A DNA stretch of 64,000 nt, taken from Bacteroidota bacterium. GTDB taxonomy: Bacteria > Bacteroidota > Bacteroidia > NS11-12g > UBA9320. Shown here one piece after another: positions 42,802 to 48,944 of this stretch. Positions within the stretch are counted from its first letter, which is position 1. The number at the start of each line of letters is the position of its first letter. The stretch lies in the NCBI GenBank assembly GCA_016124755.1, contig WGNA01000007.1, positions 186,001 to 250,000 on the forward strand, given 5' to 3'. Below the pieces are notes generated by a model, which had not been told where the DNA came from, did no database searches, and was given only the letters and a program-made list of their open reading frames with translations. The position numbers and the translations under genes were made by a program.

Positions 42802-44259
42802 TCACTGTGCTTCCAGTTTTTCCCTCAGCAATTGAGAGGCAATTTTAGGATCTGCTTTTCCTTTACTCAATTTCATCACTTCCCCCATAAAAAGTCCGAG
42901 CAAACCTTTTTTACCGGATTTGTATTCTTCAATTTTATCCGGATACATTGCCAAAGCTTCGACAACAATTCCCAATAAAAAGTCTTCATCACTGTTCTGA
43001 ATGAGGTTGAGTTTCTGCGCCACGTCCATCGCATTAGCCGATTTGTCGTTCAACATTTCGGGCAGGATATTCTGTTCTGCTGCGGCATTGCTTACAACTC
43101 CCCTGTCGATGAGATCAATTAAACCGGCCAATCGTTGCCCGGTGAGTGTGAGATCATCCCATTCCAATGCATTTTTATTCAACCAGCCTTTTACAGGTCC
43201 CATCAAATAATTGGCTGCGGCTTTATAATTCTTTGTATGCTTTGCTACTTCCAGATAATGAGCTGCCATCTCTTTCGTCTCCGTAAGAACCGTTGCATCA
43301 TATTGAGAAAGTGAATAATCGTTTACCAATCTGTAAAGTAATTCTTCCGGAAGTTCCGGCATTGAACTTCGGATACCTTCCAACCATTCATCTGAAATTA
43401 CCAATGGAGGTAAATCGGGTTCCGGGAAATACCGGTAATCGTTTACCAATTCCTTTGCCCGCATGGAGAACGTAATTCCGCGAACCGCATCGTAGGTTCG
43501 GGTTTCCTGTTTAATGATTTCTCCGGTTTCAACAGCTTCAATCTGCCGTTTGGTTTCGAACTCAATTGCCTTTCGCACATTGGAAATAGAGTTCATATTT
43601 TTAACTTCCACCTTGGTGCCGAAAGTGGTAGATCCTTTTTTGCGAACCGAAATATTGGCATCGCAGCGCAACGAACCTTCTTCCATATTTCCGTCGCACA
43701 CTTCCAGATAGCGCACTAATTTTCGTATTTCCGAAACGAACAAACCTGCCTCTTCCCCACTGCGAATAACAGGTTCCGTAACGATTTCAATTAAAGAGGT
43801 GCCGGCCCGGTTGTAATCAATTAATGAATCGTAAAGATCCATATCGTGAATACTTTTTCCGGAATCTTCTTCAAGGTGAATGCGGGTAAGCTCAATCGAT
43901 TTTTGTGTTCCGTCGGACAAGGTTACGTTTACCCGGCCACCGGAACAGAGCGGGGTTTTGTCTTGTGTTATCTGATAACCTTTCGGCAAATCTGCGTAGA
44001 AATAATTTTTGCGGGCATATAAACAATAGCGGTTGATGTCGCATTTGCAGGCGAGACCAACTTTCATCGCCATGTTCACCGCTTCCTTGTTATGTCGGGG
44101 AAGAGTTCCGGGATGCCCGAGAGAAACCACACTTACCAATGTATTAGGCATCGCGCCGTATTCGGCAGGTTCCGAACTGAAGGCTTTTGTTTTTGTGAGC
44201 AACTGGGTGTGTATTTCCAGTCCGATCACAACCTCGTATGCGTCGTAATTTATTTCCAT
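42802..44259 (-). CDS. gatB: Asp-tRNA(Asn)/Glu-tRNA(Gln) amidotransferase subunit B
   Basis: GatB binds mischarged tRNA and, with GatA and GatC, converts Glu-tRNA(Gln) or Asp-tRNA(Asn) to the amide. The 485 residues have the signature YEVVIGLEIHTQLLTKTKAF, the zinc/active-site region (VSLGHPGTLPRHN, YFYADLPKGYQITQ), LRCDANISVR and a C-terminal YqeY-like tail domain (LIDRGVVSNAAAEQNILPEM). Length is normal. gatA and gatC are not in the window. Confidence 0.97.
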   Translation of the reverse strand: MEINYDAYEVVIGLEIHTQLLTKTKAFSSEPAEYGAMPNTLVSVVSLGHPGTLPRHNKEAVNMAMKVGLACKCDINRYCLYARKNYFYADLPKGYQITQDKTPLCSGGRVNVTLSDGTQKSIELTRIHLEEDSGKSIHDMDLYDSLIDYNRAGTSLIEIVTEPVIRSGEEAGLFVSEIRKLVRYLEVCDGNMEEGSLRCDANISVRKKGSTTFGTKVEVKNMNSISNVRKAIEFETKRQIEAVETGEIIKQETRTYDAVRGITFSMRAKELVNDYRYFPEPDLPPLVISDEWLEGIRSSMPELPEELLYRLVNDYSLSQYDATVLTETKEMAAHYLEVAKHTKNYKAAANYLMGPVKGWLNKNALEWDDLTLTGQRLAGLIDLIDRGVVSNAAAEQNILPEMLNDKSANAMDVAQKLNLIQNSDEDFLLGIVVEALAMYPDKIEEYKSGKKGLLGLFMGEVMKLSKGKADPKIASQLLREKLEAQ

Positions 44260-44269
44260 CGCGAAGCGG

Positions 44270-44277
44270 CAAATTTA
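44270..44277 (-). promoter_or_regulatory. -7 box (TAAATTTG) of gatB
   Basis: Perfect TAnnTTTG on the minus strand, 10 nt before the gatB ATG. Confidence 0.5.
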
Positions 44278-44351
44278 CTTTTAGATTAAAACAATTGCGG
44301 CCAGATGATTTTGCATTACTTGATTCTTATCACCAAACCCGAATCTCTTTT

Positions 44352-44359
44352 TATTTTTG
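44352..44359 (+). promoter_or_regulatory. -7 box (TATTTTTG) of Omp28 copy A
   Basis: Perfect box at the same place as in copy B, preceded in both by a similar CCCGA-TCTCT sequence; it belongs to the duplicated unit. Confidence 0.5.
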
Positions 44360-44386
44360 ATGCTGAAAAACGGAATGAACAGGAAT

Positions 44387-45274
44387 ATGCATTGGAACCG
44401 AATTAAAACACTTACTCTTTTTGTCGCTTTTGCATCCATAATTGCCTGTAAGGAAATTCCGCCGTTTATCGATTACTCGGTTCCCATTCAATTAAGCCGG
44501 GACACAACCTACCTCACTACTTCAACTCTTCCGACTCAAGCCAGAAATGTTTTGATCGAAGACATCTCCGGAGACAAATGCGTGAATTGTCCGACTGCCG
44601 CTGCAATTGCACACAGTATTAAAGAGAACAATGATGAAGGCCGGGTTGTAATAATGACTTTACACACCTGGAAATTATCAAACCTCACTGCTCCGTTGGG
44701 CAAAGACACGCTGAACACAGACGACGCAACCAATATTATTCAAACCCTTATTATTGGAGATATTCAGGGGCTTCCGAATGGCTCTGTGAACCGCAAAATT
44801 TACGATGGAAAAACTGAAGCATTGTTGAATCCAACCAGTTGGGAAAGCTATGCAAATCAGGATCTGAATACGCAATCAGACATCTACGCCGAGCTCGAAC
44901 TTATTCCGGATAAAGCAAACCGATCTGTAATCGCTAATGTGAAAATAATTTCTCTGAAAGAGATTAATGAACCCTTAAATATGACGCTTGCCCTCACCGA
45001 AAGTCATATCATCGGGCCACAAGAAACCAAACCCGGATCTCAGGTTGTAATTGTCGAAGATTACGAACACAACTTTATTCTGCGCAAAACCATTACGAAT
45101 TATGGAGGTATTAATTTGGCTCAATCTTTTGAAAGAGGCAGAACCTTCGAAAAAGGGTTTGAATTTACGCTGCCGGCAAAATCGAATTTCGATAACTGCA
45201 CTGTGGTATTGCTGATTCACAAAACCGGCGCAACGGATAAACAGGTGTTACAAGTTGTTGAAGCGAATCTTTAA
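44387..45274 (+). CDS. Omp28-family lipoprotein, copy A
   Basis: A 295-residue outer-membrane-type lipoprotein: signal LTLFVAFASIIAC with the lipid-modified cysteine, then an Omp28-related domain. The block RNVLIEDISGDKCVNCPTAA has a CxxC motif in a thioredoxin-like context (compare the family pattern LEDFTGxxCxNCP), followed by VVIMTLHTWKLSN and a C-terminal beta domain. Such proteins are surface or periplasmic; their role is unclear. Start: the frame is open from a TTG at 44357, but alignment with copy B points to the ATG at 44387. It is 64 percent or so alike to copy B by eye over most of its length and identical in the last 47 residues. Confidence 0.85.
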   Translation: MHWNRIKTLTLFVAFASIIACKEIPPFIDYSVPIQLSRDTTYLTTSTLPTQARNVLIEDISGDKCVNCPTAAAIAHSIKENNDEGRVVIMTLHTWKLSNLTAPLGKDTLNTDDATNIIQTLIIGDIQGLPNGSVNRKIYDGKTEALLNPTSWESYANQDLNTQSDIYAELELIPDKANRSVIANVKIISLKEINEPLNMTLALTESHIIGPQETKPGSQVVIVEDYEHNFILRKTITNYGGINLAQSFERGRTFEKGFEFTLPAKSNFDNCTVVLLIHKTGATDKQVLQVVEANL

Positions 45275-45282
45275 TTCACTTT

Positions 45283-45333
45283 TTCTGCGATAAATTCCAT
45301 TATAAGTGGCCAGAAGTAAAGGCATACAAATTC
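45283..45333. repeat. Remnant copy of the methyltransferase gene's 3' end
   Basis: The stretch TTTTTCTGCGATAAATTCCA and the bases around it, just after copy A, repeat the end of the methyltransferase gene found just after copy B (46382-46430). On the minus strand it still reads PLIMEFIAEK, against PLMMEFIAEK in the intact gene. The rest of the 211-nt gap shows only the promoter of copy B. Confidence 0.75.
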
Positions 45334-45446
45334 TTTACTATTTAGTTTTTTTTGATCAAGCCAACTTTTCATTTCTAAATTCTTTGTGGTGAATCACATC
45401 ATGTCTTTATAATCAGATGATCTGATCTGAATCCCGATTCTCTATC

Positions 45447-45454
45447 TATTTTTG
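45447..45454 (+). promoter_or_regulatory. -7 box (TATTTTTG) of Omp28 copy B
   Basis: Perfect box 31 nt before the ATG at 45486; no TTG at the -33 distance. Confidence 0.5.
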
Positions 45455-45485
45455 ATAATTCGCTCAAACGGGTTAGAATGGCATA

Positions 45486-46376
45486 ATGAAATTAAACCGG
45501 ATTAAATTTCTCATCTTTTTATCAGTCCTAATAACCTTTATCGGTTGTGAGGAAATTCCACCTATTATCAATTATAATGTACTGATCGAATTAAGTCGTG
45601 ACACCTCTTATCTCACAACCTCATCCTTACCCACTCAATTGCGCAATGTTCTGACCGAAGATATTTCCGGTGATAAGTGCCCGAACTGCCCGAATGCTGC
45701 TGTATTGGCACATAACATAAAAGAGGGTAATGACAAAGGCCGGGTGGTTATCATGACCTTACATATGTGGGATTTAGTAAAATTAACCGCTCCTCTTGGT
45801 AAGGATACTCTAAACACTGATGATGCAACCTACATAGTAAAAAATCAGATTATAGGAGATCTCCCCGGTCTCCCGAATGGTGCCGTAAACAGAAAGATTT
45901 TTAATGGAAAGTCTGACGCGATTTTAACCCCTTCGAGTTGGGAAGCTTACGTGAATCAGGATTTGAGTCTTACATCAGATATTTATGCAGAACTCAAATT
46001 AATTCCGGATAAAGAAAACCGATCGGTGATTGCTAATATTAAGGTCGTCTTCTTAAAAGAAATGGACGAGCGGATTAATATGACATTAGCGCTCACAGAA
46101 AATCACATTATCGGGCCACAGGAAATGAAAGTTAACGGCAATTCGGTAATCGTTGATAATTACGAACACAACTTTATTCTGAGAAAAACGATTACTCCAT
46201 ATGATGGAATTATTCTGGGAGAAACTTTTGAAAGAGGCAGAACCTTCGAAAAAGGGTTTGAATTTACACTGCCTGCAAAATCGAATTTCGATAACTGCAC
46301 CGTGGTATTGCTGATTCACAAAACCGGCGCAACGGATAAACAGGTGTTACAAGTAGTTGAAGCGAATTTGAATTAA
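45486..46376 (+). CDS. Omp28-family lipoprotein, copy B
   Basis: A 296-residue paralogue of the preceding gene with the same plan: lipoprotein signal (FLIFLSVLITFIGC), the CxxC block EDISGDKCPNCPNAA, VVIMTLHMWDLVK and the beta domain ending HKTGATDKQVLQVVEANLN. It differs from copy A through the first 250 residues but is identical over the last 47, where the DNA differs only at four synonymous third positions. It overlaps the convergent methyltransferase gene by 4 nt at the stop codons. Confidence 0.87.
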   Translation: MKLNRIKFLIFLSVLITFIGCEEIPPIINYNVLIELSRDTSYLTTSSLPTQLRNVLTEDISGDKCPNCPNAAVLAHNIKEGNDKGRVVIMTLHMWDLVKLTAPLGKDTLNTDDATYIVKNQIIGDLPGLPNGAVNRKIFNGKSDAILTPSSWEAYVNQDLSLTSDIYAELKLIPDKENRSVIANIKVVFLKEMDERINMTLALTENHIIGPQEMKVNGNSVIVDNYEHNFILRKTITPYDGIILGETFERGRTFEKGFEFTLPAKSNFDNCTVVLLIHKTGATDKQVLQVVEANLN

Positions 46377-47191
46377 GTTTCTTTTTCTGCGATAAATTCC
46401 ATCATAAGCGGCCCTGATAGAAAGGCTTCCGCATTTTCTTCCAGCGAATCCCACGCCTTTAAGAATGCATTCCGTTCTTCTGTTTTTAACAATTCGTATT
46501 CAACGAGCTTTTCAGAATAAATCTTTAAAAAAGTTCCCGGCCACTGCCAAACCAGATCACGACTTTTACCCAACTTCGGCAATAACTTTTTATGCTGAAT
46601 TTTCATTCCGGCTTCTGAACAGGCTTTTAACAAGAGTGGACAAACATTAATCTCACTATCCATTACTTCCCAGCTACTCCGGCACGCGGAAATCACCTTT
46701 TCAACTTCCGGAATTTCAGGATACACCTTTAAAGTTGCCCAATGAATGTATTCCTGAAAAAGTAGTTTACCGCCGGGTTTTAATGCTTTCATCATTTTTG
46801 CTAAAACCGGTTTCCAATCGGTAACCCACGAAAACACCCACCGGCTGTAAATGAAATCGTATTCGCCTTCGGGCAAAATCATTTCATCAAAATGTTTATG
46901 AATGAATTCCGTATTCGAAGCTCCGGTTGCTGCGGCAAGTCTGTTGGCAAACCGAACATAGTTTTCTGTTTTATCGATACCGGTAACCTTTCCTGTTTCA
47001 CCAACGATTGCCGACATATCAAACGATGTAAATCCGGGGCCACACCCAATGTCGAGAACATTTGAACCCAGACTGATTCCGGCAATACTCCAAAGAGCAA
47101 AGGTTTCTTCAGTCCATACTTTGTGTTGAAATTCGAGTCGTCTCAGTTCTTCTGCATCGGATCCGAGAATGTATTCCCTGTTTACTGGCAT
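46373..47191 (-). CDS. Class I SAM-dependent methyltransferase
   Basis: A 272-residue Rossmann-fold methyltransferase: SAM-binding motif I VLDIGCGPGFTSFDM (about residues 40-54), the acidic loop VTGIDKTENYVRFAN, and the post-II region YDFIYSRWVFSWVTDWKP. The C-terminal third is helical. The substrate cannot be read from the sequence; small molecules are the usual targets of this group. The last 4 nt overlap Omp28 copy B. A one-mismatch -7 box (TAAATTTA) lies 4 nt before the ATG. Confidence 0.85.
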   Translation of the reverse strand: MPVNREYILGSDAEELRRLEFQHKVWTEETFALWSIAGISLGSNVLDIGCGPGFTSFDMSAIVGETGKVTGIDKTENYVRFANRLAAATGASNTEFIHKHFDEMILPEGEYDFIYSRWVFSWVTDWKPVLAKMMKALKPGGKLLFQEYIHWATLKVYPEIPEVEKVISACRSSWEVMDSEINVCPLLLKACSEAGMKIQHKKLLPKLGKSRDLVWQWPGTFLKIYSEKLVEYELLKTEERNAFLKAWDSLEENAEAFLSGPLMMEFIAEKET

Positions 47192-47251
47192 GCGGTAAAT
47201 TTATAAGACTTTGAAGAAGTGTTGAACGAAAGATTGCTGGTCTTAACAACA

Positions 47252-47259
47252 TAACTTTG
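47252..47259 (+). promoter_or_regulatory. -7 box (TAACTTTG) directly before the amidohydrolase gene
   Basis: Perfect match ending 5 nt before the ATG. Confidence 0.45.
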
Positions 47260-47264
47260 GGCCG

Positions 47265-48944
47265 ATGAAAAAACGAACCGGTTTCCGGCTGATCGGAATT
47301 TTACCTCTCTGCTTCCTATTGGTTGTAATCTCATCTTGTAAAAAGGAGGAGAAAAAAACCGAAGCCGACATTATTCTTTTCAACGGACAAATATTTACAG
47401 TCGACTCAAACTTTACCATTGCTGAGGCGATTGCCATTCGCGGTGATTCCATTCTCGCCATCGGATCTAATGCTGAAATTCGATCCGCTTTTCGCTCAAA
47501 ACAAACTTTTGATTTAGAACAGAAATCGGTTTACCCCGGATTTATTGATGCTCATTGCCACTTCTTCGCCTATGGTCAGGATTTGCAGGAACTCGATTTA
47601 AAAGGTTGTTACTCATTCGACGACATGATCGAAATGACGGTGGATTACGCTAAAAAAAATCAACCTTCATTAATTATTGGCCGCGGCTTTAATGAAGAAG
47701 AGTGGGAAACACATACAACCCTTTCCAGATTAAAACTCGATGCGTTGTTCCCGGATATTCCCGTGGTATTGCAGCGGGTAGATGGACATGCATTGTTGTG
47801 CAATCAGGTTGCATTAACCATGGCGGGCATCGATGAGAATACGATTATTGAAGGTGGCTCGATTGCCAAAATGGGCGGAATGGTGACCGGCTTTCTGGTG
47901 GATAAAGCGGCGGAAAAAGTACTGAGTCAGTTACCGGAACTTTCATTAGCCCAAAAGATAAAGGCATTAAAGGATGCCGAAAAGGCCTGTGTTGCCGCAG
48001 GATTAACAACCGTTTCCGATGCCGGTCTTGAACTAAAAACCATCCGGCTGATCGATTCACTTCAAAAAAACGGTGACCTGAAAATTCGTGTTTACGCTAT
48101 GGCAAATCCAAACATGGATGAGTTGAAAGAATTCTTTTTGAACGGCCCTTACATCACCGATCGCTTAATTGCCCGATCGGTTAAATTATACTGCGACGGA
48201 TCGCTCGGAAGTCGGGGTGCATTATTGAAAAAAGAATATTGCGATCAACCCGGAACTTTGGGTTTGCTCCAAAATCCGATTTCATTTTACGAACAATTCG
48301 CGGATTTCTGCCTCGAAAAAGGACTTCAGGTAAATACGCATTGCATCGGTGATTCTGCCAATTTATTAATGCTCCGTATTTATGGTTCGCGGCTTCACGG
48401 AGCCAACGACTATCGCTGGAGAATTGAGCACGCACAGGTAGTTGATCCGGTTGACCGACATTACTTCTCAGACTTCAATATTATTCCCTCGGTACAACCG
48501 ACACACGCTACCTCGGATATGTACATGGCACGGGAAAGACTCTGTACAGACAATCGATTAAAAGGTGCGTATGCCTATAAATCGTTGCTGGCACTCAATC
48601 ATTATATCGCATTCGGAACCGATTTTCCGGTTGAGTCGATCGATCCGCTGAATACGTATCTGGCGGCAACTACGAGAATGGGGAATAAAGGCGAAGTTTT
48701 TCAGGTGGAAGAAGCCGTAAACTTTCAGGACGCGATCCGCGCGATGACGTGTTGGGCAGCCAAAGCAAACTTTATGGAAAAAGAAGTTGGCATATTAAAG
48801 CCCGGAATGAAAGCCGATCTTGTCGTTGTTTCCAACAATCTTCAATATGTTCGCGACCGCGCCGATGCGAGAGTAATGATGACGATTTTAAACGGAGACA
48901 TTCTTCATCTCACCGGAATACAAGCTTTAGCTCAGGAGAAATAG
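47265..48944 (+). CDS. Amidohydrolase-family lipoprotein (YtcJ-like)
   Basis: A 559-residue metal-dependent hydrolase with a lipoprotein signal (LCFLLVVISSC), so exported. The YtcJ-like plan is clear: an N-terminal beta segment ADIILFNGQIFTVDSNFT, the first metal motif YPGFIDAHCHFFAYG, ADGxx-type middle (IGRGFNEEEWE, RVDGHALLCNQVAL), QVNTHCIGDSANL, WRIEHAQVVDP with metal histidine, and AFGTDFPVESIDPLNTYLA with the metal aspartate, then the closing ADLVVVSNN. The metal site is complete, so it should be active on an amide or ester; the natural substrate is unknown. Confidence 0.92.
   Translation: MKKRTGFRLIGILPLCFLLVVISSCKKEEKKTEADIILFNGQIFTVDSNFTIAEAIAIRGDSILAIGSNAEIRSAFRSKQTFDLEQKSVYPGFIDAHCHFFAYGQDLQELDLKGCYSFDDMIEMTVDYAKKNQPSLIIGRGFNEEEWETHTTLSRLKLDALFPDIPVVLQRVDGHALLCNQVALTMAGIDENTIIEGGSIAKMGGMVTGFLVDKAAEKVLSQLPELSLAQKIKALKDAEKACVAAGLTTVSDAGLELKTIRLIDSLQKNGDLKIRVYAMANPNMDELKEFFLNGPYITDRLIARSVKLYCDGSLGSRGALLKKEYCDQPGTLGLLQNPISFYEQFADFCLEKGLQVNTHCIGDSANLLMLRIYGSRLHGANDYRWRIEHAQVVDPVDRHYFSDFNIIPSVQPTHATSDMYMARERLCTDNRLKGAYAYKSLLALNHYIAFGTDFPVESIDPLNTYLAATTRMGNKGEVFQVEEAVNFQDAIRAMTCWAAKANFMEKEVGILKPGMKADLVVVSNNLQYVRDRADARVMMTILNGDILHLTGIQALAQEK

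Follow-up and report, generated by a model that had tools for sequence, protein, structure and literature searches.

Two tandem genes of the Omp28 family, here called Omp28-A and Omp28-B, lie in a 64,000-nucleotide stretch of DNA from a Bacteroidota bacterium (assembly GCA_016124755.1, contig WGNA01000007.1, positions 186,001 to 250,000), which we refer to as the window and in whose numbering positions are given. Omp28-A (44387..45274, plus strand) and Omp28-B (45486..46376, plus strand) encode lipoproteins of 295 and 296 amino acids, and Omp28-B converges on a gene for a 272-amino-acid S-adenosylmethionine-dependent methyltransferase (46373..47191, minus strand), the stop codons of the two genes overlapping. 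Our analysis suggests that, long after the duplication, Omp28-A very probably underwent a recent gene conversion by Omp28-B, which brought into it the 3' tract of Omp28-B together with the tail of the methyltransferase gene. A scrap of that tail still follows Omp28-A. An initial annotation of the window had taken the scrap to be the boundary of the original tandem duplication; most likely it arrived with the conversion tract instead.

Uneven divergence between Omp28-A and Omp28-B

The two genes had been described as tandem paralogues sharing an upstream box, the gene itself and the 3' flank, and alignments and shuffled controls bear this out. Absent from that description was the unevenness of their likeness along the gene. 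In 100-base blocks, identity is 65 to 72% over most of the gene and then 97%; at position 45126 of Omp28-A (46225 of Omp28-B) it rises from 68% to 95%, up to the stop. In a change-point search, the break that fitted best lay at 45126/46225 and raised the log-likelihood by 32.2; none of 2000 codon permutations gave such a gain, the largest being 12.7. For the 246 codons before the break, the proportions of differences at synonymous (pS) and nonsynonymous (pN) sites are 0.759 and 0.198, and for the 49 codons after it they are 0.151 and 0.018. Judged from these rates, Omp28-A and Omp28-B appear to be an old pair whose upstream synonymous sites are near saturation. What the alignment displays is the pattern by which conversion is recognized: on a diverged background, identity climbs abruptly over a short stretch, at synonymous sites as well.

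As a family control, we compared 276 pairs of 24 Omp28 genes (Omp28-A, Omp28-B, and 22 chosen from the loci of relatives), each cut at the same alignment column. Omp28-A/Omp28-B ranked first both in the fall in pS (0.60; next, 0.39) and in the amount by which protein identity was higher at the C terminus (0.32; next, 0.28). Because the pair is extreme among the 276, the likeness of the 3' ends does not reflect a family-wide constraint.

A methyltransferase remnant downstream of Omp28-A

On the minus strand, positions 45271..45323 hold a dead remnant of the methyltransferase 3' end. Positions 45275-45323 correspond to roughly the last 17 codons; 40 of 49 bases match the true end of the gene (46377-46426), and the alignment has one gap, of a single base, on the side away from the stop. 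Read on the minus strand, the scrap gives PLIMEFIAEKVN-stop where the real gene gives PLMMEFIAEKET-stop, and its in-frame stop has been kept, overlapping the stop of Omp28-A just as the methyltransferase stop overlaps that of Omp28-B. Alignment of 45275-45333 with the methyltransferase 3' end scored 58, against a best of 26 in 1000 shuffles. The initial annotation had proposed that its remnant (45283-45333) be abandoned if it aligned no better than shuffled sequence; this segment scored 50 against the whole methyltransferase, and the best of 1000 shuffles scored 30. The dead copy is therefore real, but its extent had been overestimated, since the homology ends near 45323 and not at 45333. In a whole-genome search with 45275-45485, the best other match was the true methyltransferase end (E value, 2e-7), followed by four further matches with E values of 0.06 to 0.74.

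Beyond the remnant lies a spacer (45324..45429) in which no homology to the remainder of the methyltransferase gene, or to the sequence upstream of the Omp28-A box, could be detected. A duplication edge was sought by comparing 45324-45485 with the rest of the methyltransferase and with its reverse complement, and none was found in either comparison (179 and 995 of 1000 shuffles, respectively, were as good). Similarly, the first 105 bases of the spacer showed no likeness to the region upstream of Omp28-A when the box was left out (457 of 1000 shuffles as good). With both boxes included, only 1 of 1000 shuffles did as well, and the aligned part was the box itself.

The remnant differs from the true methyltransferase end at 9 of 49 positions (18%). 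This divergence is indistinguishable from that of synonymous sites within the near-identical 3' tract (5 of 33; P = 0.77) and very different from that of the upstream synonymous sites (125 of 165; P = 5e-13). Since the tail has diverged as the young tract has, and unlike the rest of the gene, it most likely came with the conversion tract. As a mark of the original duplication boundary, the remnant is too well preserved for a pair that is near saturation.

The tail also indicates the direction of the exchange. No outgroup is close enough to polarize the coding tract, and at Omp28-B the methyltransferase end is intact and family-like, its C terminus being common to seven homologues (consensus PLMIEIIAEK). 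The tail thus belongs to the methyltransferase, and because it forms part of an intact, family-like gene only at Omp28-B, Omp28-B was most likely the donor, with copying running from Omp28-B to Omp28-A. The inference in the initial annotation that information flowed from the place of Omp28-B to that of Omp28-A was in this respect correct, but the flow would have occurred by a much later exchange and not by the duplication.

A model for the exchange, and alternatives to it

We propose the following sequence of events. The starting point is an old tandem Omp28 pair, both members apparently under purifying selection, which forms a block with the methyltransferase gene; gatB and an amidohydrolase gene enclose this block, which is not at the slot beside xerD that the family occupies in the relatives examined (see below). 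Long after the duplication, homologous recombination would have copied the 3' end of Omp28-B over that of Omp28-A, leaving Omp28-B unchanged. The copied segment would have taken in some 143 coding bases, the stop region, and some 50 bases from the end of the methyltransferase gene. The copied tail would be functionless in Omp28-A and free to drift, while still naming the donor and marking one edge of the tract. The simplest reading is that of one recent tract of about 198 bases in Omp28-A, comprising its 3' end, stop, and tail. The acceptor tract (45126..45323, plus strand), delimited by the change point, the family control, and the comparison of tail divergences, would contain the 3' coding bases nearly identical to Omp28-B up to 45268, the stop region, and the methyltransferase tail; the donor tract in Omp28-B (46225..46426, plus strand) includes the true methyltransferase 3' end. 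Non-reciprocal conversion as the mechanism, and its having happened in a single event, are what we infer from this pattern.

Several points weigh against this account. The genomes searched include none of the same genus, and no relative shows an Omp28-A without the tail. If the original duplication had left the tail and conversion had refreshed it later, the result would be indistinguishable from a tail first brought by conversion. Around the stop (45269-45279) the two copies differ more than on either side, including a 3-base gap, which could reflect two events or a later change. The shuffling, permutation, and exact tests all treat sites or codons as independent. Finally, G+C content at third codon positions gives no sign of donor and acceptor, or of foreign origin, being 0.415 in the 5' part of Omp28-A, 0.386 in that of Omp28-B, 0.41 to 0.42 in the tract, and 0.39 to 0.45 in four neighboring genes.

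Three other explanations of the scrap and the tract deserve comparison with conversion. That there was no exchange, and that the C-terminal stretch is merely more conserved across the Omp28 family, would fit the 100% protein identity of the last 48 aligned codons of Omp28-A and Omp28-B. However, the likeness extends to the synonymous sites, the other 275 pairs in the family control all show smaller falls, and a constraint on Omp28 cannot account for a methyltransferase tail, so that we give this explanation almost no credence. A second possibility is that the tail dates from the original tandem duplication, as a remnant at its boundary, the likeness of the 3' ends being a separate matter. A tandem copy of box, gene, and methyltransferase end would yield exactly the order observed, and pre-existing homology in the tail might have aided a later conversion. 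Set against this are the 82% likeness of a noncoding tail beside the near-saturated synonymous sites of the same pair, the binomial chance of 40 matches in 49 at the upstream synonymous identity (3.5e-17), and a spacer beyond the tail in which shuffle tests detected no homology; we consider a duplication remnant decidedly improbable. The young 3' end and tail beside an old 5' part would also result if Omp28-B and the tail had been duplicated recently and the 5' five-sixths of one copy had then been replaced by a diverged Omp28 from another strain, in which case the tail would after all be a duplication boundary. Such a replacement needs a diverged donor, and no Omp28 with more than 49% protein identity to Omp28-A was found among the other 107 genomes of the order searched. 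Moreover, the 5' parts of Omp28-A and Omp28-B are each other's nearest kin (100/99) and not odd in composition, and both copies share an upstream box found nowhere else in the genome. A donor of the same genus that was not sampled would be compatible with all of these objections, and we regard 5' replacement as improbable. Conversion of Omp28-A by Omp28-B remains the reading that we prefer.

Comparison with known cases of conversion between bacterial paralogues

Gene conversion has been described between the duplicate tuf genes of Salmonella (PMC5485169). The likeness to the present case lies in non-reciprocal copying within a bacterial chromosome that carries a gene twice. The differences are that the Omp28 tract overruns the stop into the end of a neighboring gene and that the tuf pair was studied by selection, whereas the Omp28 pair is known from its sequence. 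Conversion has also been reported between the release factor genes RF1 and RF2 in bacteria, in a study whose section headings name Bacteroidia and sliding-window analyses (PMC4530459). The likeness is conversion of diverged paralogues limited to one part of the gene; in contrast to release factors with different stop-codon specificities, the genes here form a tandem lipoprotein pair, and the direction is read from the overrun tail. Conversion between bacterial paralogues is already known (PMC5485169, PMC4530459), and the locus described here exemplifies it cleanly, with a direction that can be read from an overrun tail. No conversion between Omp28 genes was mentioned in the titles and abstract openings found in the literature searched, which is weak evidence of absence.

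The tail yields both the direction and the relative age of the conversion without an outgroup. An overrun into a convergent neighbor may be a more general footprint of direction and relative age; tentatively, we suggest that scraps lying behind the non-donor copy could polarize conversion between tandem paralogues genome-wide without outgroups, and that many supposed duplication edges may be conversion edges. The locus also illustrates how a duplication story built on a single locus can mislead, for the visible scar dates a far later exchange and the usual home of the family is elsewhere.

The Omp28 genes and their usual genomic neighborhood

Omp28 had a match in 85 of the 97 genomes searched, the source genome included. 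In all 29 loci fetched from relatives, xerD adjoins Omp28, and a gene for an S4-domain pseudouridine synthase, which we label rluB-like, flanks Omp28 opposite xerD in 19 of 19 loci from the same family and was found in 0 of 10 from the other family. These names follow the genome G014, whose xerD and pseudouridine synthase pass the XerD cutoff and the family model TIGR00093, respectively. In the source genome, no Omp28 separates the rluB-like and xerD genes, whose open reading frames (ORFs) share 1 base (L070:8989-10769, G000:C1). As in relatives, acyl-CoA dehydrogenase and S66 genes lie to one side of this closed slot and gidA to the other. The xerD of the source genome has 49% identity to its G014 counterpart, a value exceeded in 16 of the 18 other same-family loci.

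The block in the window lies between gatB (42802-44259, minus strand) and the amidohydrolase gene (47265-48944, plus strand). Of 10 relatives checked, 7 have these two genes side by side, one of the 7, G020, having a small additional ORF between them; in the remaining 3, of genus g4, they are on different contigs. The Omp28-A/Omp28-B/methyltransferase block is therefore most simply an addition to the gap, whose edges, located by eye by comparison with the gatB-amidohydrolase gaps of seven relatives, are the region upstream of gatB on the left (44260..44334, minus strand) and the methyltransferase-amidohydrolase gap on the right (47192..47264, plus strand). In G017, the amidohydrolase beside gatB seems to be broken (L074, G017:C5:176148-177516), giving two separate matches, one with three internal stops.

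A methyltransferase homologue lies between thiolase and 2-phosphosulpholactate phosphatase genes in four genomes of genus g3 (G014, G002, G009, and G017), among five long methyltransferase loci; in the source genome these two genes adjoin with no methyltransferase between them (L098, G000:C23). Omp28 beside this methyltransferase was found in none of the 29 relative Omp28 loci and 7 methyltransferase loci (1.5-kb flanks) and in none of 13 longer stretches from relatives, so that the initial annotation's hoped-for relative with a single copy next to the methyltransferase did not appear among the loci examined. Among 64 Omp28 loci of named Bacteroidota genomes (flanks of up to 4 kb), which partly repeat the genomes of the other set, gatB, the methyltransferase, and the amidohydrolase occurred in 0 and xerD in 22. 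Neither Omp28-A nor Omp28-B is in the position held by Omp28 in the nearest relatives. The earlier view that Omp28-B is in the ancestral position finds no support in the neighborhood of Omp28 and xerD in the 29 loci of relatives, the closed slot here, and the adjoining gatB and amidohydrolase genes of relatives. One lineage thus lacks a gene of the conserved xerD-side neighborhood at its usual slot and carries it elsewhere.

Descent of the Omp28 pair

When the tract was left out, Omp28-A and Omp28-B were sisters in trees of the family (100/100 in one tree and 100/99 in another). Their best matches are in genus g3, with 41 to 44% identity to Omp28-B and, for first copies, 45 to 49% to Omp28-A, and in a GatB tree the source genome is sister to g3 (99/98). 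The g3 kinship of both Omp28 and GatB would fit a relocation within the lineage, which is the conclusion of which we are least sure. Gene transfer is possible, especially for the long-branched methyltransferase: Omp28 and the methyltransferase could have been acquired from another bacterium, with loss of the native Omp28 beside xerD, a history that is itself compatible with conversion. The long branch of the methyltransferase (1.5) points in this direction, as does the thiolase-side slot, which holds a homologue in four g3 genomes and none here. On the other hand, the best matches of both Omp28 genes fall in the very genus that is sister to the source genome in the GatB tree, and the 107 other genomes of the order that were searched contain no closer Omp28. 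We therefore consider transfer unlikely, if worth keeping in mind. Older conversions could also have given the Omp28-A/Omp28-B pair an apparent age below its true one. Faster evolution of Omp28-B was considered (tree branches of 0.38 against 0.10 for Omp28-A) and set aside, as the relative-rate test fell below 0.05 with only 2 of 8 outgroups.

Tandem Omp28 pairs also occupy the xerD slot of two g3 relatives, G017 (L006/L054) and G020 (L009/L057). They have no such tract, with C-terminal pS values of 0.84 (G017a/b) and 0.91 (G020a/b). As they stand apart from Omp28-A/Omp28-B in the tree, Omp28 seems to have been duplicated more than once.

Omp28 proteins and upstream boxes

Both proteins pass the gathering score of Pfam family PF11551 (34.9 bits), Omp28-A with 70.9 bits, obtained on the longer ORF 44357-45274, and Omp28-B with 74.7. 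Both miss the cutoff of 150 for NCBIfam NF033782 (98.1 and 95.2 bits), falling within the broader Pfam family but outside the named NCBIfam subfamily. The alignment profile matches the solved structure 2R2C, the 28-kDa outer membrane protein Omp28 (6e-14). They share the Pfam family with that protein and differ from it in falling below the subfamily cutoff, in standing away from the xerD-side slot, and in being paired. The genome (4.05 Mb, 39 contigs) contains two clear Omp28 copies, with two more matches at E values of 0.13 and 0.14. For Omp28-A, an alternative in-frame start ATG at 44375 is possible. Cys21 of Omp28-B, a candidate lipobox cysteine, follows a hydrophobic stretch and is invariant in 11 aligned sequences. 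Also invariant in the alignment is the cysteine pair C65 and C68 of Omp28-B, which may resemble a thioredoxin-like CxxC site. As both copies are open and have a pN far below pS, both are probably used.

Upstream of Omp28-A (44335..44361, plus strand) and Omp28-B (45430..45456, plus strand) are 27-base boxes that are 85% alike, a likeness equaled by 0 of 1000 dinucleotide shuffles. Allowing up to 3 mismatches, the 24-base consensus CCCGANTCTCTNTNTATTTTTGAT has only 2 sites in the genome, which are the two boxes, and the same consensus read backward, as a control, has 1. The boxes are alike although their flanks show no likeness. The CCCGANTCTCTNTNTATTTTTGAT motif may be a candidate binding site for a dedicated regulator. 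The Omp28-A box contains TATTTTTG, which fits the -7 element of Bacteroidota promoters, TAnnTTTG, and an element resembling TAnnTTTG is present for gatB on the minus strand in 44260..44334.
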